From assembly GCF_003148775.1 (NCBI RefSeq), contig NZ_QGGW01000016.1:1-37164 (forward strand): a stretch of DNA of 37,164 bases, written 5' to 3'. The notes beneath the pieces were generated by a model. That model ran no database searches and had not been told where the DNA came from. It was given only the letters and a program-made list of their open reading frames with translations. A program made the translations under genes and the position numbers. The stretch is from Roseicyclus mahoneyensis. GTDB lineage: Bacteria > Pseudomonadota > Alphaproteobacteria > Rhodobacterales > Rhodobacteraceae. This document shows positions 23,656 to 37,164 of the stretch, in pieces. Each line of letters begins with the position of its first letter. Positions within the stretch are counted from its first letter, which is position 1.

Positions 23656-24993
23656 TTAGCCCGGCGCTTTGTCCCGCATATTATCGAACAAAGCGGCTGT
23701 TGACGGCACACCAAGTATCATCGCCTTCATCCTTGGATCGGCTTTTCCCAGCTGACGAACGACGAACCCATGATAATCTGAGACTTGCTCAGAGACGAAA
23801 TTGTCGAGCTGGTCGAAAGGTTGGCGCTGATTGCAGAATGCAAACGACTTCTGCCAACCATAAACACGTTTTCCCAAGGCATCTAGGGTTGCGCTCTGGG
23901 AATGCTTGGGGTTCAAGTTGCTGCCCTTTCTTAATGCTTCCTTGATCGCTGCCTTTGACGTGGAGAGCGCCTCTCTAACCCCAACCTTCATATTGTCGAT
24001 CGACTTGGCGCTTGGAACGCATCTCTTGGGCTGCAAGGTGCAGCCAAGGAAGTTGATGGCCGCGCTACACTCACCTTGTTCGGCCTTTCCGTGACCGTCT
24101 CCGGGTGAATAAAGTCCGAAGCCGAAACCCGTCAGTGTTTTCTCTGCATATGCTTTGGCTGCGTCAATCGACTCGATATCAGATCCTACCATCAGGATAT
24201 CGTCAATGTACCTTACCGCAGTTACGCCCATCGTGTTCAGCGTCTGATCCATTTCGTAGAGCAAGACGTTTCCGGCGAAAGCAGAAAGTGAGGACCCTTG
24301 CGCAACACCGGTGCCGTCTTTCGGGAAAAGGTGGGTGTAGCCGATCAATTCTTCTTCATTTCCCAAACGAACCTCCAAGGCTCTCGAGAACAGTTCGACA
24401 AGCGCTTCATCGCCTGTTTCACCTCGAACAAAAGACACCACCTTTTCAGTCGGGATCTTTGTGAAGAAAGCACGGATATCGGACTGGAAGTAGAACTTCG
24501 CGCCATGATCGATGGCTGCCATGATTGTCTCGATTGCAGGGCGGACACCCCCATATGGATAAATAAGCCCTCCAACACCGTATTTGGAACGATTGACATC
24601 GTTTATGCGACCAAGTCTTGCATCGCGCACCGTTTCAAAACGTGTGTCTGGATCCCGCAATTCTCGTGCTATCCTTGGCTGCAGGACCTGCAAGATCGCC
24701 CGCTGCACCACGCGGTTTTGGATCGTGGATATCGCAATAGGCCGCGGGTCTTTCCCAGCGGCAAGGCGCTTGCGCTTATCTTTCAAAACGCCCTCAACGG
24801 GGTCGAAGGAAAGAGTATTCGTCCGTAGTTGACGTATTATGCGCCGCAGGTGCCGTTGGTGCGCAAACTCAAACTCTGAGGCTTTGCCTCGAATCTCGGC
24901 ATTACCAGAATTTAAGGCGCTTCGCTTTACATGCCGCCAAGCAGCAAAAATGTTCTGTTCACTTCTGACTTCTTGAAAAAGTGTCTTGGCCAT
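23656..24993 (-). CDS. Stand-alone reverse transcriptase, class not assigned
   Basis: 445 residues from ATG 24993. RT palm motifs are intact: Asp172 in QSDIRAFFTKI (motif A), QGSSLSAFAGNVLLYEMD at about 232-249 (motif B) and YIDD at 262-265 (motif C). There is no intron maturase X domain signature, no HNH domain and no integrase, and motif B reads QGSSLSA, not the SQ form of diversity-generating RTs. A retron VTG motif is not evident. It best fits the varied group of host-benefit or defence-associated RTs, but I cannot name a type. Composition is less GC-rich than the chromosomal genes. Confidence 0.88.
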   Translation of the reverse strand: MAKTLFQEVRSEQNIFAAWRHVKRSALNSGNAEIRGKASEFEFAHQRHLRRIIRQLRTNTLSFDPVEGVLKDKRKRLAAGKDPRPIAISTIQNRVVQRAILQVLQPRIARELRDPDTRFETVRDARLGRINDVNRSKYGVGGLIYPYGGVRPAIETIMAAIDHGAKFYFQSDIRAFFTKIPTEKVVSFVRGETGDEALVELFSRALEVRLGNEEELIGYTHLFPKDGTGVAQGSSLSAFAGNVLLYEMDQTLNTMGVTAVRYIDDILMVGSDIESIDAAKAYAEKTLTGFGFGLYSPGDGHGKAEQGECSAAINFLGCTLQPKRCVPSAKSIDNMKVGVREALSTSKAAIKEALRKGSNLNPKHSQSATLDALGKRVYGWQKSFAFCNQRQPFDQLDNFVSEQVSDYHGFVVRQLGKADPRMKAMILGVPSTAALFDNMRDKAPG

Positions 24994-25255
24994 GTTCTTC
25001 GCTCGGGTCCTCCGCACATACAATCCCGACCGTTGACGCACACCCATCCCCTGCGCACGGCATGGCCGCGACGACAGACACCTCAGCGGCAAATGCCACC
25101 TTGGCGCGGTCTCCGTGGCGCACGATCCGCATGGAAAGCTCCAGCTTCACGTCGGACGCCATGGGGACCATGGACGCTGCGGCAAGCGCGAACAAAATTC
25201 CGCACAAGCCGGTAATCCAGCTCAGGCGAGCCGGTTTTTCGGGGCAAATCCACAC
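24959..25255 (-). CDS. Possible small exported or membrane protein overlapping the RT start
   Basis: 98 residues from GTG 25255, with GGAAGG 9 bases upstream. Residues about 10-33 (LSWITGLCGILFALAAAS) form a signal-peptide-like or membrane segment, followed by a 45-residue part encoded by the 133-bp repeat (VKLELSMRIVRHGDRAKVAF). Its end overlaps the RT start by 35 bases, so coupling is possible. No family recognised. It might be non-coding instead: this same DNA is a candidate RNA template region for the RT. Confidence 0.4.
   Translation of the reverse strand: MWICPEKPARLSWITGLCGILFALAAASMVPMASDVKLELSMRIVRHGDRAKVAFAAEVSVVAAMPCAGDGCASTVGIVCAEDPSEEHGQDTFSRSQK
25043..25175. repeat. 133-bp direct repeat, copy 1
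   Basis: Identical, base for base, to 25404-25536 (offset 361). On the minus strand both copies read as the same peptide beginning MVPMASDVKLELSM. It begins 50 bases upstream of the RT start on the minus strand. Perfect identity implies a recent duplication or active maintenance. Confidence 0.93.
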
Positions 25256-25403: not shown

Positions 25404-25536
25404 CCCATCCCCTGCGCACGGCATGGCCGCGACGACAGACACCTCAGCGGCAAATGCCACCTTGGCGCGGTCTCCGTGGCGCACGATCCGCATGGAAAGC
25501 TCCAGCTTCACGTCGGACGCCATGGGGACCATGGAC
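25404..25536. repeat. 133-bp direct repeat, copy 2
   Basis: Second identical copy. The 228 bases between copies (25176-25403) contain on the minus strand a TTGACA-like box (25292-25297) and the start of the 98-residue ORF, and no other gene. On the minus strand copy 2 also opens a reading frame that runs on past the repeat, but its later part overlaps the 98-residue ORF in another frame, so I do not call it a gene. A 23-base palindrome abuts this copy. Confidence 0.93.
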
Positions 25537-25672: not shown

Positions 25673-27964
25673 TTAGATGCTCTGTAATAACCTCGAGCTG
25701 CTGTTTTCAACCTCAACGCATTCAGCGCAATTCTCCAGTAACGGGCCCTCGGCTTGACCTGTCATTTCCGCCAGTTTGACGCCTGACAGCAACCCGGCAA
25801 GATCCGGGCCCGAAAGACTTCCTCGATCCAGCAACATTCGGGCCATCGCGATCAGGGTTTCGCGATTTTCCGTGAGGATTGCCAATGCGGCACTTTCCGC
25901 ACGGGTGAGATGGTCCTGGACCCGTTCCTTCAGGCTGTGATCAAACCGCAAGCGATCGACGGCTGTGTTTGGGGGCCCCATCCAGACCGTTCCGCTTTCT
26001 CCCAGCCCATATGACATTTCAAGACCGGTCGCTCTTTCCGTGGCTTTGGCCAAATCACTGTGCTGTCCCCCACCTGCGCCGCCGCTGGGGCGTCCGAGAA
26101 CAAGGCGTTCAGCGGCCCGCCCGCCAAGAAGCAAAGCGATATCACCCTCAATGTCAGACCGGCGCATCGCGCTGGGAAGCTGGGTCATGTCAGCCTGCCC
26201 GCCGCCTTGATACAGTGACAGGAGCTTTGGCTGCGCCCGGCCCGTCGCATGCGCAACGATGGCATGCCCGGACTCGTGCAGGGCGACACCCCAACCGATC
26301 TCGGGTGCGATGGATGGCCGAATCCGTTCGACTGCTGTTGTCAGATCATCTGCATCCAATTCACGCCGTTCCCGCCGTGCGGTGGCACGGGCTGTCTTGA
26401 CCGCATTTGCGATCTGCGCACCGGACAGACCAACCGCCCTTGCGCAAACAGACGCAAGGTCGGCATCCCGCAGATCATTCCCGAGGTGCCACCGAAACGC
26501 GGCTGGCAGCAGATCAAGTGTCGGGTGGTCCATTTTGATCAGATAATCGAATCTGCCCGGCCGTGTCATGGCAGCGTCGATCCTGTTTGCGAAATTCGTG
26601 GCGGCGATCACGACGACACCCTCCCGCCCATCGAACCCGTCAAGACATTCCAGCAATCCCGCCACAATGCTTGCAGTCCATGAGGAGTTCTGATCATGCG
26701 GGCGGTCCCGATCTCCGATCGCATCCAGTTCATCGATGAAGACAATTGCGGGGCTGGCTTGCATCGCTTGATCGAAAAATGCCCGCATTTTCTGAAGCAG
26801 ATCGCTCGATCTGGCGCCTTCTGACTGCCATTTTGACAGCGATCCGGCAAAGACCGGAAACCCTGCGTCACGGGCGAGAAGTTTGGGAAGCTCCGTTTTT
26901 CCGCAACCCGGAGGGCCTTCAAGCAGCAAACCACTGGTTACGTCTTTCCAGCGGATCTTGCCTGCTTGCCAGTCCCGCAAATCAGCAAGGACTTGTTCAA
27001 CAGGTTCCCGAACGTCGGCGGCCAGCGGAAAATCAGCAAGTCCCGGGGCCGCTGAAATCTTCCCCTTGTTCAGCAACCTGACCAGCACTTGCCCCGCTCC
27101 AATCGGGTTTGGCGCACGGGCGGCGATTGTCAGCTGTTCGGGCGTCAGCGCTGCAACCTCTGCGGCGCTGATGGAAGCGGGAATGTCCGTCTCATGCACG
27201 ATCTGTCCGGGGTAGAGATGGCCGAGGATCACCCGCAGCATTTCGCGGTCCAATTCCGGAAGGTTGATTTCGGCTTCCAGAACACGGGCAAAGCTTGCAG
27301 GAAGTGTCGAAGGGTTGGCGCCTACCAGCAGCAAAGGGCGGCCCTCATCGATCACATGTTCGAAGCTTTTGGCCAGTCCGAAATACCCGGTTTCCTTCCC
27401 GGCAGCTGCGCTGCCCAGCAATTCGCTGACCTTACGGGCATCCGGCCTGTGCAGCCCCGGACAAAGATCCGGGCTGGCGACGATGGCCCGTAGAATGTTT
27501 GTCATCATGCCCGGAGAGTAGCCAGCAGGCGACCGCAAAAACAGAATGCTGCCCGGCTTGCAGAATGCATTTGCAAAGCCCTCTGGTGTCACAAAGCAAC
27601 GGGCAAGCTGAACTGCCATCATCACGCCTTCGGCCCGTGGCCGTTGGTGATGTTCCGGACAAGTCGGCAGGATGCGGCCCATGTTTTCCTGCCAATCCAT
27701 TTCGATTTCATCGAGGATCGAATCCACATGGGGTTGCTCGACATCGCCCGGCGCCTGATCTCTGCCCTCGGGTTCGCAAAAGCCGCTGAGCTTCTTTTGA
27801 CGCCCCTGCGCTTTCGGCTTTGTCGAGGCTGAAGCAGCGATCAGCGTGCCATGCCAATCCGTAAATGCCCATTTTGCGTGAGGCGGGAGCGCAAGCTGCT
27901 CCAGAATCTCATTGGCAAAGGAACGCCATTTCTGGCCGTCGTTTCGTGTTGTTGACTGCGTCAT
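25673..27964 (-). CDS. Soluble FtsH-like AAA+ / M41 metalloprotease
   Basis: 763 residues from ATG 27964 (GGGAG 8 bases upstream; another ATG lies 15 bases earlier). The AAA+ core has Walker A GPPGCGKT (350-357), Walker B IVFIDELD, and RPGRFD with the arginine finger (468-473). A peptidase M41 domain follows with HESGH (563-567) and the third zinc ligand in GGQHSDLAKAT (Asp about 637). Unlike FtsH it has no membrane segment. Residues about 110-300 look like a second, degenerate AAA module without a Walker A. A cytoplasmic ATP-driven protease of unknown target, in an island setting. Confidence 0.88.
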   Translation of the reverse strand: MTQSTTRNDGQKWRSFANEILEQLALPPHAKWAFTDWHGTLIAASASTKPKAQGRQKKLSGFCEPEGRDQAPGDVEQPHVDSILDEIEMDWQENMGRILPTCPEHHQRPRAEGVMMAVQLARCFVTPEGFANAFCKPGSILFLRSPAGYSPGMMTNILRAIVASPDLCPGLHRPDARKVSELLGSAAAGKETGYFGLAKSFEHVIDEGRPLLLVGANPSTLPASFARVLEAEINLPELDREMLRVILGHLYPGQIVHETDIPASISAAEVAALTPEQLTIAARAPNPIGAGQVLVRLLNKGKISAAPGLADFPLAADVREPVEQVLADLRDWQAGKIRWKDVTSGLLLEGPPGCGKTELPKLLARDAGFPVFAGSLSKWQSEGARSSDLLQKMRAFFDQAMQASPAIVFIDELDAIGDRDRPHDQNSSWTASIVAGLLECLDGFDGREGVVVIAATNFANRIDAAMTRPGRFDYLIKMDHPTLDLLPAAFRWHLGNDLRDADLASVCARAVGLSGAQIANAVKTARATARRERRELDADDLTTAVERIRPSIAPEIGWGVALHESGHAIVAHATGRAQPKLLSLYQGGGQADMTQLPSAMRRSDIEGDIALLLGGRAAERLVLGRPSGGAGGGQHSDLAKATERATGLEMSYGLGESGTVWMGPPNTAVDRLRFDHSLKERVQDHLTRAESAALAILTENRETLIAMARMLLDRGSLSGPDLAGLLSGVKLAEMTGQAEGPLLENCAECVEVENSSSRLLQSI

Positions 27965-28033
27965 GGTATTCTCCCGCATGGTTGCATGCGTTTCATTGCA
28001 TTGGGTTTTTCGGAGGGCTGGGCCGAGGGGCCG

Positions 28034-30321: not shown

Positions 30322-30492
30322 ATGTCGACTTGGCGTCAAAATAACCCAAACCTTCTGAAAGAACTTCAAGCGAAACCTCTTGCATTACAGTTCGAGGGCG
30401 CATCACCAAATGCTTGGGAGAGTATTCTGAATTCCGGCTTGCCGCCTGCGCCATCCCTTGAAATGCTGATGGCAGATCGAACTGAACTATAA
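30322..30492 (+). CDS. Possible small protein or gene remnant
   Basis: 56 residues from ATG 30322 (a GTG at 30292 would add 10). STWRQNNPNLLKELQAKPLALQFEG and NAWESILNSGLPPAPSLEMLMADR look protein-like, but there is no strong ribosome site and no family match. The end overlaps the EcoRII-like stop by 6 bases. It may be the tail of a gene cut by past rearrangement. Confidence 0.35.
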   Translation: MSTWRQNNPNLLKELQAKPLALQFEGASPNAWESILNSGLPPAPSLEMLMADRTEL

Positions 30493-31719
30493 ATGATTTA
30501 ACATCCTCAAATCTCCCAAGAAACTTTCCAGCGTCATGATATCTGTCCGAATAGCTGGCGGGAATTTAGCAATCAGTGGTTCGGGCACCACAAGCTGCAC
30601 ATTGGCCTGCGTCATCTCGCGGAACTGTGCCTCGGACACGCCCTCTTGTAAGGTCAGAAGGTGCTTCACCGAAATCCGGTCTGCCTCGTTGATCACCTGC
30701 CGCCAGCGGTCGCGGCATGTGGTCTTGGTGGCGAGCATCCGAAGTCGGGCCTTGGGAAAGCCTGGGTCACGATAGGCAGCCTGCGATGGGAACAGGAAGT
30801 CTGGGCGCTTGCCTGGCTCCGACTGCGGCCCGTGCTGGAAATCTACACCCTCGCGGAACCGCTCCTCTATCAGGATTTCCCGCGTGTGCAGTTCCAGCGA
30901 GCGACCCGAGCGTGCCTTGCGCCTTTGCAGCACGGTTTGCGCGCGGGCAATGAAATCGTCCAGAGTCGTGAAGCCGACTCGGATCGCCGGAAGCTCTATC
31001 GCCTCTTCCACGCTTCGGAAGATTTCAAACTCGCAATCGCGCCGCCGCAGAAGCCGCTTGTCGGGCGGCGTGCCATGCTCTGGCCGAAGCTCAACTGTCT
31101 TGCGCACAATGTCCGCGCCGGTCGGGAACTGTGCCAGCCATGCGGGCGGAATCTCGGCCGGCTCAAGCCAGCACCGAGCGGGCCGGGCGGCAAAGGGCGG
31201 GAACAGCCCGGGTTGATCGGGGGACCACATGACAAAACTGCCGGGCTCCACCGGCCCGAACCGCTCCTCGGCAATGTCTTCCTCTGTCTCGTGACGGCAC
31301 ACCCAAACATGGCAGCGGATCGCCGCACCGTTCTCGTCCAGCGGAAAGGCGAAGATCGTCAGAGCGCCAGTGCTCTCCGGGTCCAGAAGCGCCGAAGCAC
31401 CGCCGCCGAAATTGGTCAGCCGGGTTTCGTCCCTGCCATTTTTCTGCCCCTCGGAGCGCTTGGAGTTGTAATAGATCGCCCGCACCTGCCGCACGTCCAT
31501 GTGCGAGTCTACCGCCAGTTCAAACCAGTGATCCGGGTTCTTCTCATCCGTCCGGTTGATCGCCGGGAATATGCGAAACAGGAACTCTTTCGGGATATAG
31601 GGGCCTGCCTGATGCGTCCGGTTGGCGAGCGTGTCATTGCCCGAAAGCCGCTTCACGCAAAGGGCGATGCCAGGTGCGCAGAACTCGCCGAGCCAATCCG
31701 TCAGATCAGATACCGCCAT
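30487..31719 (-). CDS. EcoRII-family type II restriction endonuclease
   Basis: 410 residues from ATG 31719 (GGGGGGAG upstream; the longer start at 31734 is weaker). The N-terminal 200 residues correspond to the effector DNA-binding part of EcoRII; the C-terminal nuclease has the family block GRSLELHTREILIEERF, then RPDFLFPS (Asp307) and MLATKTTCRDRWRQV (Lys332), a PD-(D/E)xK core, and KHLLTLQEGVSEAQF. EcoRII cuts at CCWGG; the same site is likely here given the Dcm-like partner. It overlaps the vsr end by 14 bases. Confidence 0.92.
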   Translation of the reverse strand: MAVSDLTDWLGEFCAPGIALCVKRLSGNDTLANRTHQAGPYIPKEFLFRIFPAINRTDEKNPDHWFELAVDSHMDVRQVRAIYYNSKRSEGQKNGRDETRLTNFGGGASALLDPESTGALTIFAFPLDENGAAIRCHVWVCRHETEEDIAEERFGPVEPGSFVMWSPDQPGLFPPFAARPARCWLEPAEIPPAWLAQFPTGADIVRKTVELRPEHGTPPDKRLLRRRDCEFEIFRSVEEAIELPAIRVGFTTLDDFIARAQTVLQRRKARSGRSLELHTREILIEERFREGVDFQHGPQSEPGKRPDFLFPSQAAYRDPGFPKARLRMLATKTTCRDRWRQVINEADRISVKHLLTLQEGVSEAQFREMTQANVQLVVPEPLIAKFPPAIRTDIMTLESFLGDLRMLNHL

Positions 31720-32173
31720 ATGCTCCCCCCGCAATCATCTCGTGCGCCCGGCCATTCACAAGCCATTCCGCTGCGCGGTCAAGAACCGTTTCCACCGGCA
31801 GCCGCTCTCGCCCCTTGAGGGCGCATTCCCAGATTGTTAGCACCCGCCAGCCATCGGCCAGAAGCGCCGCCTCTGCGGCCTTGTCGCGGGCCGCGTTGCC
31901 TTCGATCTTCGCGCGCCAAAACTCTTGCCGCGTGGCAGGCAGGCGGAACAGCGGGCAGGTGTGCCCATGCCAAAAACAGCCGTGAACGAACACCGCCGCG
32001 CGGCGGCCCGGGAACACCAGGTCGGGCGAGCCTGGCAAGCGGCGGTCATGCAGCCGGAACCGGAAGCCCCGGGCATGAAGCCCCCGCCGCAGGATCATTT
32101 CCGGCTGCGTGTCCTTCCCCCGGATGCCCGCCATCATCCGGCTTCGGGTTGCGGCGTCCACAACGTCAGCCAA
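31706..32173 (-). CDS. vsr: Very-short-patch mismatch endonuclease Vsr
   Basis: 155 residues from TTG 32173. Vsr nicks 5' of the T in T:G mismatches produced when 5-methylcytosine deaminates. With this start the catalytic Asp51 (GSPDLVFP), His69, and the zinc ligands Cys66, His71, Cys73 and Cys117 carry the same numbers as in E. coli Vsr, which supports the TTG start. The opening RSRMMAGIRGKDTQPE is the family signature. It overlaps the methyltransferase end by 8 bases. Confidence 0.95.
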   Translation of the reverse strand: MADVVDAATRSRMMAGIRGKDTQPEMILRRGLHARGFRFRLHDRRLPGSPDLVFPGRRAAVFVHGCFWHGHTCPLFRLPATRQEFWRAKIEGNAARDKAAEAALLADGWRVLTIWECALKGRERLPVETVLDRAAEWLVNGRAHEMIAGGAYGGI

Positions 32174-33440
32174 CGAGCGGCAGCCGCCTTTGCAGGTGTG
32201 CAGGGTCTTGCGTGGCCTCGGCCGCGATAAAGGGCAGCATGTGCCGCGCAACGGCTTCGATCACCGGCACGGCAACCGAATTGCCGAACTGCTTGTAAGC
32301 CTGCGTGTCCGAAACCGGGATTTTGAAGGCCGACTCTCCGGGCTTGTCGAAGCCCATAAGCCGGGCGCATTCGCGCGGGGTCAGGCGGCGCGGGTTTTGC
32401 CCGTCCCCCCGGTCAATCAGGATTTCGGAGCCGTCCTTGTAATAGCGGGCAGAGAGCGTGCGGGCCACGTCTCCCGGCCCCACAAGCCCGAAGCCGAAGC
32501 CGTTCCCGGCCGCGCGGTGCTTGGCGGCATAGTCTTGCAGATAGCGCCACAGATGATCGGTCAGAATGAACTTCGGATTCACCCGCCCCGTAGCATCGGT
32601 GTAGTGCTTGTCCGGCCCCTTCTCGCTGCCGTCTTCCGGGTGCAGGATTGCCTTGAGCTTCGGCCCGTTCAAGGGCGAGGGCACGTCCAGATCGTCAAAG
32701 GTGAAATCGCATTCCTCGCGGAAACCGGCGATCAGGATGCGTTCGCGGTGTTGCGGCACATAGCCCTTCGCATTGATCACGCGAGGCGTAGGGACGTGAT
32801 AACCAAGCTCGCGGAGCCTGCCCAAGATCACGGCAAAGGTGCGCCCCTTGTCGTGATTCACAAGGTTCTTCACGTTCTCAAGGAGGAACGCCTTCGGCCG
32901 GTGCTCGGCGATGATCCGGGCCACATCGAAGAACAGCGTGCCTTGCGTCTCGTCCGCGAAGCCGTGCGCCCGACCGAGGGCGTTCTTCTTGGACACGCCT
33001 GCGATGCTGAAGGGCTGGCACGGGAAACCGGCAAGCAGTAGGTCATGCGCCGGAATATCCTTCGCGTCGATCTTGGTTATGTCTCCGGCAATCTCGTGAT
33101 CGTCATGCGGGAAGTTCGCGCTGTAGGTCAGCTTTGCCCAGCGATCCCATTCCGAGGTGAAGACGCACTTGCCGCCGAGCGGTTCAAAGCCCCTTCGAAT
33201 CCCGCCAATTCCTGCAAACAGGTCGATGAACCGGAAGGCAGGTTGCCCGGCCTCGGCCACTCCTTGTCCACGTGCGAGGTCTTCCAGCACCGCAAGCGCG
33301 GCCTGCCGGGGCGGCGCCTCGCCGCGCTCCCAGCGATAAAGTGTCGCCGAAGAATAGCCTAAGATGGGTCCGAGGGCTTCGACAGACAGGCCTGCCCGTT
33401 CACGTAGCCTTGAGAAGTCAGAACGGCTTTCGTCGAGCAT
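32166..33440 (-). CDS. Dcm/M.EcoRII-type cytosine-5 DNA methyltransferase with HTH
   Basis: 424 residues from ATG 33440, which has GGAGG 6 bases upstream; a TTG 18 bases earlier is less likely. Residues 6-55 form an Xre-like helix-turn-helix (LSVEALGPILGYSSATLYRW), then motif I FIDLFAGIGG, the catalytic Cys141 in GFPCQPFS, ENV at 188-190, QHRERI, and QFGNSV. The LTDHLWRYLQDYAAKH segment resembles E. coli Dcm, which methylates CCWGG. Such N-terminal HTHs often let the enzyme repress its own gene. Confidence 0.95.
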   Translation of the reverse strand: MLDESRSDFSRLRERAGLSVEALGPILGYSSATLYRWERGEAPPRQAALAVLEDLARGQGVAEAGQPAFRFIDLFAGIGGIRRGFEPLGGKCVFTSEWDRWAKLTYSANFPHDDHEIAGDITKIDAKDIPAHDLLLAGFPCQPFSIAGVSKKNALGRAHGFADETQGTLFFDVARIIAEHRPKAFLLENVKNLVNHDKGRTFAVILGRLRELGYHVPTPRVINAKGYVPQHRERILIAGFREECDFTFDDLDVPSPLNGPKLKAILHPEDGSEKGPDKHYTDATGRVNPKFILTDHLWRYLQDYAAKHRAAGNGFGFGLVGPGDVARTLSARYYKDGSEILIDRGDGQNPRRLTPRECARLMGFDKPGESAFKIPVSDTQAYKQFGNSVAVPVIEAVARHMLPFIAAEATQDPAHLQRRLPLVG

Positions 33441-33574
33441 GGCGTACCTCCGGGTCAAATTTTCTCATCTTTGCCGCAATAAACACACAGAAACAAGAAC
33501 AAAGAATGAATATCAGACGAAAACCTGATCGCTGCTGCTTTTGCGGCAGTCTGTTCCAAAAGAAGATCGCGCCG

Positions 33575-35335
33575 TTACGCAAGCAAGCGACTGAAAAACG
33601 CAAGAGGGCCCGCGCTCAGCAAGGTCCGGTCCAGAAATCCGTTCCACACCTCACAACTTGTCTCCGGCAAAAACACACAATTATGACAAGCCGCGTGGTT
33701 ACCATTGGAGCCGCTTCGCGCCATTCCCTCGGAACAAAGCGGATCGGCCGAGCATAGTTCATGGTCAGCCAATGCTTGTAGCACAAGCTGCTCCATCCGA
33801 GCCGGCCTGGCCTGCCGCGACAGGCCGCCCATGGTCCCGTCTGCGTCGGGAGTCGAGGTGTAGATCAACAATCCCGCCATATCTGGTCCAACGTAAAGAC
33901 GCTCCCTCAGCGCACTCGATGAATACCCACTGTCGAGTGACAGTCGTACAACAAGTGCATGCGCAAGGGTATGGACAAGCATATATCGTGCGCTCAGTTG
34001 AGGTGGCGGACCTTCCGCCGGCTTTCCTTCGGCTCGGGTCGTCTCCAAGAATGTAATTACAAGCCCTTGAAGGTGCTTTTCAACATCTGGCCTTTTCTCC
34101 CAATCGGAGACAGCATCAATGTCCAGGGTGAGAAAAACGCCTTCGCCGTGCATGGCAACGGCCGGAAGCCACGACAGCGCAGAGCGCGACAAAGGCACCG
34201 CCTCCGGTTTGCCGCCCACCTGTGCCTTCAGCCTCGTGAAACCGGTCAATGCTCGCACTTCCCGAAGGCGTTCAACGGAAGAAATCCACGAGATCATGCC
34301 GTTGAATACGGTCGGAACTGGCTGACGACGGTTGAGCAAGGTCATCGCCTCCGCGTTTGACGCGGACGTATCCGTTAACAGCATCCGGAATTCGTCAAGC
34401 CGAAGGTCATGTTCAGCATCAGTGCTGTCCTGTTTCATCTCCCTGAAGCGTCGGGCGATTTCCTCTGCGCTCTCGTCTCCGTCCCAAATCGGCAATATCT
34501 TCTTCGTGATGAAGGAGACCATCATTGCCTCATCTTCGAGAAAATCGAGCATTTCGATGAAATCCCCAATCTTTTCCTTGAACGGGACCTTCCAGTCCGG
34601 AAGCGTGATAGCGCTCTGCTCAATCGAGAAATATACGTTGCTGGCACCTCGTTGCGTGATCCGCGGCGCCGCCTCACATCCCATTTCACTGCCTCCAAGC
34701 CAAGGCCGCCCACCCCGACATTTGTGTTTCGGGATGCCCCTCGGTGAAAATGCTTCGGCCATTGAACGACTGCCACCGCAGGACTTACATGTCAGCATCA
34801 GCCCACCAATGCCCGCTCCAGCTGTCCGGAGCGCCAGAACGGGCTGGGTGCAGGATTCCTTGTGTGTCAGCCAGGACATCCACGGAAAATCATCAAGGTG
34901 GCCATTCTCACAAATCGTCACGAAGCGGACTGGCACCACAGCAGGCTTGCCGCGACACTTGCCGCAATGAAGACTGTCACCATTGCGAGAGGGAGCCCAT
35001 TGTCCGGAACGATTGATCACGTGGCACTCCGGGCATGAGAGCCAATCCGGAAAGCGTTCGATCGGCAGTACGCGCTCCCGGGTCTGCCCGTCTTTGAGGT
35101 AAGTTCCGACCGGAGGCGCCCTGAAATGATCGACACCTAACAGAGCCTCGAGGCGGGGTTCCCGAACGATATCCTGCTTGTAGCCGCCTTTCGTATAGGC
35201 TTCCCAAGCTTCCAGACCCTGCATGACCCCTGACAGAAGTGCGCCACTTCCCGGCAAACGGAAGTCGACAATTGCCCCTGGACCGAAGGTTGAGATGATC
35301 TGGCTGCGGCGGATACTGCCAACATTCTTGCTCAT
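33575..35335 (-). CDS. drmB: DrmB-like DUF1998 protein (DISARM core)
   Basis: 586 residues. Opening VGSIRRSQIISTFGPGAIVDF, the CPEC...CGKC pair, the ICENGHLDDFPWMSW motif, CKSCGG, then the DUF1998 part LVHTLAHALVVRLSLDSGYS and the closing CHNCVFLPETSCE are the features of DrmB. In DISARM, DrmA and DrmB form a complex that blocks unmodified phage DNA. ATG 35335 overlaps the drmA stop (ATGA). No drmC follows; the next gene is the methyltransferase, 134 bases away. Confidence 0.92.
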   Translation of the reverse strand: MSKNVGSIRRSQIISTFGPGAIVDFRLPGSGALLSGVMQGLEAWEAYTKGGYKQDIVREPRLEALLGVDHFRAPPVGTYLKDGQTRERVLPIERFPDWLSCPECHVINRSGQWAPSRNGDSLHCGKCRGKPAVVPVRFVTICENGHLDDFPWMSWLTHKESCTQPVLALRTAGAGIGGLMLTCKSCGGSRSMAEAFSPRGIPKHKCRGGRPWLGGSEMGCEAAPRITQRGASNVYFSIEQSAITLPDWKVPFKEKIGDFIEMLDFLEDEAMMVSFITKKILPIWDGDESAEEIARRFREMKQDSTDAEHDLRLDEFRMLLTDTSASNAEAMTLLNRRQPVPTVFNGMISWISSVERLREVRALTGFTRLKAQVGGKPEAVPLSRSALSWLPAVAMHGEGVFLTLDIDAVSDWEKRPDVEKHLQGLVITFLETTRAEGKPAEGPPPQLSARYMLVHTLAHALVVRLSLDSGYSSSALRERLYVGPDMAGLLIYTSTPDADGTMGGLSRQARPARMEQLVLQALADHELCSADPLCSEGMARSGSNGNHAACHNCVFLPETSCEVWNGFLDRTLLSAGPLAFFSRLLA

Positions 35336-37069
35336 TGGATTTCCTCAGCGTCCGACAACACAGTCTCTTTAATCACAAAGCCAGTAGAAGGCTCGACAGC
35401 ACGAAGTGTGCCGGGCGTGGCGCGTGCGAGGCCCTTGGAAAATCCAGAGGCATTCGATGTTGCCTGTGCGTCAGCAGAGATCAACAAGGCGTTGTCCGAC
35501 CAGTTGTCCCAATACTTTGCTACCGCGCCACGCCGCAGCCAGCGTTTCAGGAACTCGCCAAGCTCTTGTCGGGCGGCTATGGCTTCGTCCGGATCCACTC
35601 TGGATATACGCGCACATATCAGATCAATAAGCACATCCAATTCAGCTTGATGTGATTCCGCATTGGCCGGACTGTTCAACATTCCGGGAACCAGATGCCT
35701 CGCCATGGCAACGAATGGCGCATGGAGAGCCTTGTCTCGCGCCCTCGGTGCGAATGGGGTTACGCCAGTTGCCTCGACATCCCGATAGAGCGCGCCGTGC
35801 CATGTTGGGAAAGTCTCGTAGCGACTTCGGTCGCGCGATTTGTTCGCATTGTAGAGGGTGACCACCAGCCCCGGCACCTTGCCACGGCCAACGCGGCTCG
35901 TTGCCTGGATGTATTCGGCGATGGTCTTTGGTTGGCCGTTGACCAACATCAAGCCGAGGCGACCCACGTCCAGACCGACGGAGATCATATTGGAAGCAAG
36001 GACAACGTCTGCAGCTTCGCCCGTGTCACGGCTCGCATCCAGTTCAAGAAGCTTCTCGCGGATTTCGTCTGACTTTACGCGACTGGTGAGTTCGCTCGGT
36101 GGCTGGAGAGGGCGAGATGTTTCTTGCCGCCGGGCAGAAACCAGTTCCAAGCTGTGTTTGACGTCGTCCTGCATGATGATCGAGGCGCTTCCGAGTTCGC
36201 GCAGCGAATTGAAATAACCCACCAACGTCCAGTAATGATCTTCCTCTTGCTTGGCGAAGGAGGGATCGGCAGCTGCCTGGAGGAGCGATGACACGATGGC
36301 CTGATAGATGTAACTGGCTGTGCGGCCTGCCGTGGTTATACCAAGATAAAGCCGACCGGGACTGCCCTGCTCCACACAGGCAAAACCCGAGTTGGAATGA
36401 TGCAATCCTGGCGGGGGGAATTGCATGACCTTGCGGTCAAACAGGTTAAGGACCTGATCAGCGGCGCGGCGGATTGTTGCTGTGGACCCGATGACCTTCG
36501 GACGACGGGTATTTCGAGTGCATAGAGCATCAATGGCCGTCTCGAAAAGCCCTGCCATGCTCCCCAAAGGTCCCGCGATCAGATGCAATTCATCCTGGAT
36601 TATCAGATCCGGTGGCAGGCGCCCCGCATCGCCAAGCCCGAACAGCCGACCTGTTTCCTTCTTCGTAACGATCTGGACGAACTTGTCAGCGGTACCCAGA
36701 AGGAGCGTCGGAAGTTCACGGTAAATGTCATCATCCACTGTCCAGAATGGAAAGTGAGTTCTTGCTTGCCCTGAACGGCACCCGCTCTGTCGACAGCGTG
36801 CATGAACCCTGTCACCGCTCTCGGCGACGTCCCACTCCAAATGAGACCCACAATCAGGGCAGTGTTCGATCTGGGCCGGAGAACCCGTCTTTTCTGTTTC
36901 GTTCACTTTGTTCGGCGTGGTGTCCCTGCCGACCCAAAGGCCAATAGAAATTGGCGCGCCTTGCGCAAGCGAAGACGGAATACTGGTTCCGGGGCATTCG
37001 TAGTCACCCGTCCGCAACAGATCACTTGCGAGAATCATCGCGGCTGCCCGCTGGAACTGCTGCGCTGTC
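35332..37069 (-). pseudogene. drmA: DrmA-like helicase, 5' part missing (IS insertion)
   Basis: Helicase C-terminal-type protein of DISARM. What remains is the second half: counting from ATG 37038, a zinc knuckle CPDC at 60-63, DELH at 149-152, GSTATIR at 184-190, ISVGLDVGRLGLM and QATSRVGR at 378-385. Walker A and everything before it, several hundred residues in DrmA homologues, is absent. The frame stays open upstream (QTAQQFQRAA) until the IS3-type end at about 37070, so this is an interrupted gene; the front half may lie beyond the element. If translated from 37038 it would be a helicase without an ATP loop. Confidence 0.85.
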
Positions 37070-37164
37070 TGAGCTACCCCCCGAAAATTGGACAGTGACG
37101 GAAGCTACGATCTGAGGTCTGCTGATCCCCAAGACGAGGAGATCAGAATATGTCGAAACGCAGG
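37070..37164 (+). mobile_element. IS3-family insertion sequence (left end, partial)
   Basis: Begins TGAGCTACCCCCCGAAAATT at 37070, a TG-starting end of the sort found in IS3-family elements of Rhodobacterales, followed by an 80-base leader. GAGGAG (37136-37141) precedes ATG 37150, which opens MSKRR, the start of the typical orfA transposase. The rest is beyond the edge. It interrupts drmA. Confidence 0.85.

Follow-up and report, generated by a model that had tools for sequence, protein, structure and literature searches.

The window, that is, the whole stretch of DNA analyzed here, is a 37,164-nucleotide contig of Roseicyclus mahoneyensis (NZ_QGGW01000016.1, C16) that ends in the core genes of a DISARM (defense island system associated with restriction-modification) locus, drmA and drmB, with a complete EcoRII-type restriction-modification set downstream on the same, reverse strand. 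drmB (33575..35335) encodes a full-length DUF1998/MZB protein of 586 aa that scored 471 bits against NCBIfam DrmB_fam (cut-off 240) and matched the PDB structure of DrmB (7s9v) at E 9.9e-78. The set begins 116 bp farther downstream, and its three genes, dcm, vsr and the EcoRII gene, overlap end to end. The first (32166..33458) encodes a Dcm-type cytosine-5 DNA methyltransferase with an N-terminal helix-turn-helix (Pfam DNA_methylase, 281 bits), 54% identical to Escherichia coli K-12 Dcm, including the variable part ahead of the last conserved block, which we take to be the target-recognition region. vsr (31706..32251), overlapping the genes on both sides, encodes a mismatch endonuclease (Pfam Vsr, 106 bits; TIGR00632, 145 bits against a cut-off of 98) with 49% identity to K-12 Vsr over 138 aa; because this match begins only at residue 27, the true start probably lies nearer 32170. 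The last gene (30487..31734) encodes a full-length EcoRII-type restriction endonuclease with both EcoRII-N (166 bits) and EcoRII-C (206 bits) Pfam domains, a match to R.EcoRII in the PDB (1na6, E 3.7e-96), and the motifs PDFLFP, ATKTTCRDRWRQ and NEAD, presumably catalytic, so that the two domains and the Dcm-type methylase together make up an EcoRII restriction-modification system. Profile and PDB scores for drmB, the methylase, vsr and EcoRII are all far beyond chance level and confirm the original prediction, drawn from the letters alone, that these four genes are closely packed on one strand. GC content was 0.63 to 0.70 at 1-23 kb and 0.51 to 0.60 beyond, except for a peak of 0.64 at 31-33 kb covering vsr, dcm and part of the EcoRII gene. 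At third codon positions (GC3), the set genes ranged from 0.73 to 0.76 against 0.58 to 0.61 for the core, and from 0.69 to 0.76 against 0.57 to 0.61 in the closest relative.

The drmA gene, also predicted at the outset, is indeed present, but only its C-terminal part (35332..37069), with DELH and QATSRVGR motifs, lies in the window. Its PADLOC DrmA match has its best stretch at 393-829 of 837 and another piece at 197-354. The N-terminal part, with a GGGKT motif, was found at one end of another contig of the same genome, C20 (L012), beyond the stretch on which the original prediction was based. Against the intact DrmA of the nearest relative (L023/L106), the C20 piece aligns with residues 1-480 (87%) and the window piece with 480-1056 (93%), from which we infer that C16 adjoins C20, a junction unseen in the assembly. 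The window closes with an insertion-sequence-like repeat end (37070..37164). This repeat matches 10 other places in the genome, at least 8 of which are contig ends, and both edges of the break carry similar inverted ends and a short target repeat, as judged by eye. An insertion-sequence-like element thus appears to interrupt drmA between GGGKT (C20) and DELH (window). The locus has the DISARM core of a DrmA helicase and a separate DrmB; because drmA is interrupted, DISARM is probably inactive in this strain, while the restriction set looks intact. Beyond the N-terminal part of drmA, C20 encodes a UvrD/GajB-like helicase (813 aa), a divergent 979-aa protein and an SNF2 helicase, and farther on, toward the island end (L012, 10617-16679), a Mob_Pre-type protein, Shedu, an AlbA_2 protein and a tyrosine integrase, a gene content that suggests a mobile island. 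The 979-aa protein had no Pfam, PADLOC or NCBIfam matches. An AlphaFold2 model of the family (the L023 member, 1004 aa; mean pLDDT 78, pTM 0.47) is helical at both ends and rich in beta structure between them; it gave nothing at E 0.001 or better in a Foldseek search of the PDB, and a PDB sequence search with the family alignment found no match.

For comparison, we used a DrmB alignment, selected irrespective of methylases, to scan 84,980 species genomes. The 80 loci retained were the best 80 of at least 555 confirmed candidates and so represent the kin of this DrmB rather than DISARM as a whole. UvrD, DrmA and DrmB were found in that order in 70 of the 80 (hereafter UvrD-type loci); eight of the other ten were short or cut (L037, L042, L051, L058, L063, L081, L088, L090), and two (L100, L102) fell on the classical side of the DrmB tree. 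NERD occurred in 49 of the UvrD-type loci and DrmC in 6, and in 26 a conserved protein of about 980 aa (L023, 1523-4537, and relatives), the 979-aa family, was paired with SNF2. Within the stretches seen, NERD was absent from the window's own clade (11 tree rows), and no methylase was identified among the core genes of the UvrD-type branch. Hosts included Alpha-, Beta- and Gammaproteobacteria, Acidimicrobiia, Bacteroidetes, Planctomycetota, Myxococcales, Acetomicrobium and others, named from record titles, with many metagenome-assembled genomes among them. By gene content, the core of the window locus fits this DISARM branch, in which UvrD precedes DrmA and a NERD helicase usually follows DrmB. 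Three loci on the same side of the DrmB tree (L132, L135, L137) had a NERD-like gene without UvrD; a 5-methylcytosine (5mC) methylase was in view at all three and Vsr at one. Combinations of these families were also seen in other hosts: on a Leisingera plasmid (L103, 11188-26214), genes for the 979-aa family, SNF2 and NERD neighbor one for a 2094-aa YprA-type helicase that combines DEAD and MZB domains in a single protein, and a Paracoccus locus (L104) likewise has the 979-aa family, SNF2 and NERD.

DISARM classes 1 and 2 were reportedly described in Ofir 2018. Class 1 is marked in PADLOC by DrmD, DrmMI and DrmC and class 2 by DrmE and DrmC with DrmA and DrmB, according to the available part of PMC9252829. 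Descent from an ordinary member of either class by loss of drmC and gain of a type II set would agree with the clear homology of DrmA and DrmB to DISARM, with the 438 bits of the window methylase against PADLOC DrmMII (a type II methylase model scored 510 bits) and with an SNF2 helicase that is distantly DrmD-like in NCBIfam. That helicase, however, reached only 91 bits against a DrmD cut-off of 610 and was closer to DpdE (148 bits), and DrmMI, DrmC and DrmE were all absent among the matches listed for the 18 proteins scanned from the window and C20, namely the 25 best PADLOC families, so that a weak DrmE match could be hidden. Both class 1 and class 2 were rejected on these grounds. Nor was DrmE among the matches listed for UvrD proteins (25 best of 37 to 45 PADLOC families; all 14 in NCBIfam). 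In the DrmB tree of 100 rows, a quick tree with a midpoint root and long-branch warnings, 13 classical DISARM rows split from the other 87 with an SH-aLRT of 98. Such descent is therefore very improbable, and the earlier assignment to class 2, with the methylase in the place of drmC/drmMII, was abandoned in favor of the UvrD branch.

Full 10-kb flanks were available at 50 of the 70 UvrD-type loci, and the other 20 were dropped from full-flank counts. Within 10 kb, 36 of the 50 carried a 5mC methylase and 34 both a methylase and Vsr. Farther out, methylase and Vsr lay ~11-15.5 kb from DrmB in L023, L045, L056 and L083; in L044, a methylase-Vsr-EcoRII set lay beyond SNF2 at ~11-15.5 kb, with another methylase inside the flank; and L074 and L079 had a methylase alone at ~10-11 kb. 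With these farther finds included, methylase and Vsr occurred within ~15.5 kb at 39 of the 50 full-flank loci. A methylase was in view at 50 of the UvrD-type loci, full-flank and shorter-flank ones together, and at 44 of these at least one set gene fell within 1 kb of the core. The placement of drmAB beside a 5mC methylase-Vsr-endonuclease set thus recurs in many genomes, in partial support of the initial interpretation. The five-gene, same-strand order (drmA, drmB, methylase, vsr, EcoRII-type) recurred in 3 of the 80 loci (L047, L077, L092), but in each a NERD gene stood between drmB and the methylase.

A census of 244 genomes of the window's order gave a similar picture. DrmB was found in 9 genomes at 10 places, and within 15 kb of it a 5mC methylase occurred at at least 7 and Vsr at 6 of these, where ~0.003 Vsr would be expected by chance per stretch with such 15-kb flanks. 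Classical DISARM made up four of the seven methylase places (G118, G174, G264, G270) and four of the six Vsr places; the non-classical methylase places were the window's own genome, G265 (a Loktanella relative) and G160, the last without Vsr. DrmB places outside these seven (G042, G141 and the second of G118) were on short contigs or near contig ends. Genomes with a 5mC methylase numbered 155 of 244, including all 9 with DrmB, and 18 of 18 relatives searched, not all of the window's order, had one somewhere in the genome.

The sets beside the core are of several types. Set labels could be given to 41 of 61 tree rows that had a methylase in view or were themselves added by hand, and the 20 un-nameable rows were excluded; L023, L044 and L045 were labeled via extended neighborhoods and the window, L017, L018 and L020 by hand. 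Among the 41 rows were EcoRII sets (3), EcoRII-C sets (8; by Pfam for L077, L098 and L109, the remainder by sequence similarity), MvaI/BcnI sets (5), Dcm with a GHKL-HNH-SNF2 set (7), DUF2357/PD-(D/E)XK sets (6), and another methylase, usually with Vsr (12). On the DrmB tree these labels required at least 15 changes, compared with a mean of 25.4 (range 21-28) in 200 shuffles, from which it follows that sets are partly inherited and often exchanged. Unlike sets accompanied DrmB proteins more than 90% identical in five pairs (L038-L044, L039-L044, L069-L072, window-L023 and L018-L098) and at 90% in L055-L062; the window's closest relative, L023 (94% DrmB identity), has an MvaI/BcnI-type set at the opposite end of the core. 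Full-length EcoRII within 10 kb of the core was found in 1 of 80 loci (L092, 65% identity over 413 aa), with a second farther out in L108, the neighborhood of L044. We rejected the view that EcoRII is a constant component, since the modules differ between loci. The Dcm-type methylases of the EcoRII, EcoRII-C, MvaI/BcnI and GHKL sets, of which representatives were aligned, were 55 to 65% alike and 50 to 62% identical to K-12 Dcm, while the other two methylase types shared 23 to 30% with them.

Taken together, gene content, adjacency, exchange of sets and kinship with Dcm are established from the sequences compared, and we favor, with a probability of about 0.58, the reading that this branch is a DISARM variant relying on an exchangeable neighboring methylation-restriction set for self-marking. 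The core is a helicase machine in which DrmA and DrmB represent the two parts of a YprA-type helicase and are accompanied by a UvrD-like helicase; an SNF2 helicase and the 979-aa protein are added in the window's lineage and a NERD-domain helicase in most others. The adjacent 5mC methylase would mark host DNA, shielding it against the endonuclease of the set and, putatively, against DrmAB; Vsr would mend the T:G mismatches arising from deamination of 5mC; and the endonuclease and the helicase machine would attack unmarked DNA, possibly cooperating in cutting. Borrowing the mark of the set is the simplest reading, as the core is without an identified methylase and one is usually nearby, and because the set is swapped from time to time, the self mark could change while the core persists. 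For the window, methylation and cleavage at CCWGG are predicted and likely, given that the methylase is 54% identical to K-12 Dcm and the endonuclease matches R.EcoRII, so that the site proposed at the outset was a sound inference. The accompanying idea, that one methylase serves two layers of defense, agrees with the data and is plausible. Endonuclease cuts may feed the helicase machine, but EcoRII leaves 5' overhangs of 5 nt and MvaI of 1 nt. Both are shorter than the 7 nt bound by DrmAB of Serratia, according to the available part of PMC9142583, which reports that DrmAB favors DNA with a 5' overhang, that 5mC in the DNA reduces its ATPase activity and that DrmC is apparently dispensable. 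We propose only tentatively that the branch, without a methylase of its own, may be a restriction engine that plugs into any adjacent 5mC methylase-Vsr-endonuclease set. The set would provide the self mark; in the window's lineage, which showed no NERD gene, it might also make the first cut, and swapping it would re-specify the whole defense.

Several observations weigh against reliance on a neighboring set. In this strain drmA is broken. Across the branch, 11 of the 50 full-flank loci are without methylase and Vsr within ~15.5 kb, and eight of these (L029, L033, L048, L049, L050, L065, L084, L093) have no 5mC methylase within that distance. Dcm-type methylases (more than 250 bits to K-12 Dcm) occur in only 14 of the 50, so CCWGG is not a general rule. 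The sets flank the core on one side or the other and in both orientations, and many are therefore not in one operon with it. Of the ~94 Vsr genes in the order census, 6 are near DrmB, and Dcm-Vsr-EcoRII sets also stand alone, for example on Acidiphilium plasmid L130. Methylase and Vsr were also found within ~13.5 kb at 6 of 13 classical control loci, flanks past 10 kb being viewed for some only (L100, L102, L140, L142, L143 and L144, the last four close kin), and classical L136 had a methylase without Vsr. The methylase-Vsr link is stronger in the UvrD branch than in classical DISARM, yet it is not confined to that branch. In the classical class 1-like loci L142-L147, a 5mC methylase and Vsr lie immediately upstream of drmD, and Vsr may therefore accompany DISARM more widely. 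In Lentibacillus (L100, 3202-14585), DrmA, DrmB, DrmC and a 5mC methylase occur with Vsr, and two UvrD/GajB-like genes are divergent from drmA.

We consider it less likely that set and core are defense-island neighbors only, independent restriction sets gathering by DISARM-like cores because both are mobile cargo, without shared function. Frequent exchange, placement at both ends and on both strands, a GC3 unlike that of the core and the occurrence of sets alone would fit such cargo, as would the integrase, Mob_Pre-type protein and Shedu of the C20 island. The association nevertheless looks specific. Neither HsdR, HsdM nor HsdS was found in the 70 UvrD-type loci with K-12 HsdRMS probes alone, and type III genes were present in 2 of the 70. 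In 18 genomes, 7 strong N6-methylase genes were found, none closer to DrmB than ~19 kb, along with three weak ones (22-32 bits) ~10, 12 and 18 kb from a DrmB (G019, G028), two of them beside the second, less similar DrmB of those genomes. Set genes, moreover, usually abut the core, in the 44 of 50 loci noted above. Vsr was found within 15 kb of SduA, on the same contig, in 0 of 9 genomes besides the window's own, a weak control because Vsr occurs at all in only 2 of the 9 and one of the SduA matches fell below the cut-off. The window is one instance, in a broken copy, of a wider pattern whose architecture is real and recurrent.

Other genes were noted elsewhere in the window. A reverse transcriptase gene (23656-25092; Pfam RVT_1, with PADLOC RT and DRT-type models) has two identical 133-nt direct repeats at and beyond its 5' end (25043-25175 and 25404-25536). 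A gene for an AAA ATPase with an M41 peptidase domain (25673-27979), distantly matching IetA (77 bits), adjoins two unknown genes and a MarR regulator.

How DISARM discriminates self from foreign DNA is an unsettled question, which the reading of an exchangeable self-marking set would make directly testable, since the branch offers natural pairs with a nearly identical core and unlike sets (window/L023, L069/L072 and L018/L098). The loci also suggest that Vsr often accompanies the 5mC methylases linked to DISARM, and they extend the known range of defense by YprA helicases. Among described systems, the UvrD-Cas4 and MORC contexts (PMC5704561, PMC2292703) similarly place a methylase and Vsr beside helicase and nuclease defense genes, and the MORC-type sets resemble the GHKL-HNH-SNF2 set that close relatives of the window carry; DrmA and DrmB with such sets are not described in the available parts of these papers. 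ARMADA type II, as presented in the available part of PMC12458937, likewise combines YprA-type, SNF2/BrxHII-like and GajB/UvrD-like helicases with a methylase. Its YprA protein has a C-terminal Vsr domain, its methylase is PglX-like and its UvrD has a RelE domain, whereas the locus here encodes DrmA and DrmB as separate proteins, has a free-standing vsr and carries a 5mC methylase, and an assignment to ARMADA type II was rejected; no PglX-like methylase was found among the window and C20 proteins scanned. The window's Dcm-Vsr-EcoRII set has all three families in the gene order of the Acidiphilium plasmid but, instead of standing alone, follows drmB closely on the same strand. The CCWGG marking reported for DISARM of B. 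paralicheniformis (available part of PMC5957327) is probable here too. The NCBIfam DrmA cut-off is 950, against a score of 904 for DrmA of the TA1 relative. With DISARM classes 1 and 2 the locus shares separate drmA and drmB genes and a link to a 5mC methylase; it differs from them in having UvrD upstream and, in most relatives, a NERD helicase after DrmB, and in a methylase that is exchangeable and comes with Vsr and a restriction module.

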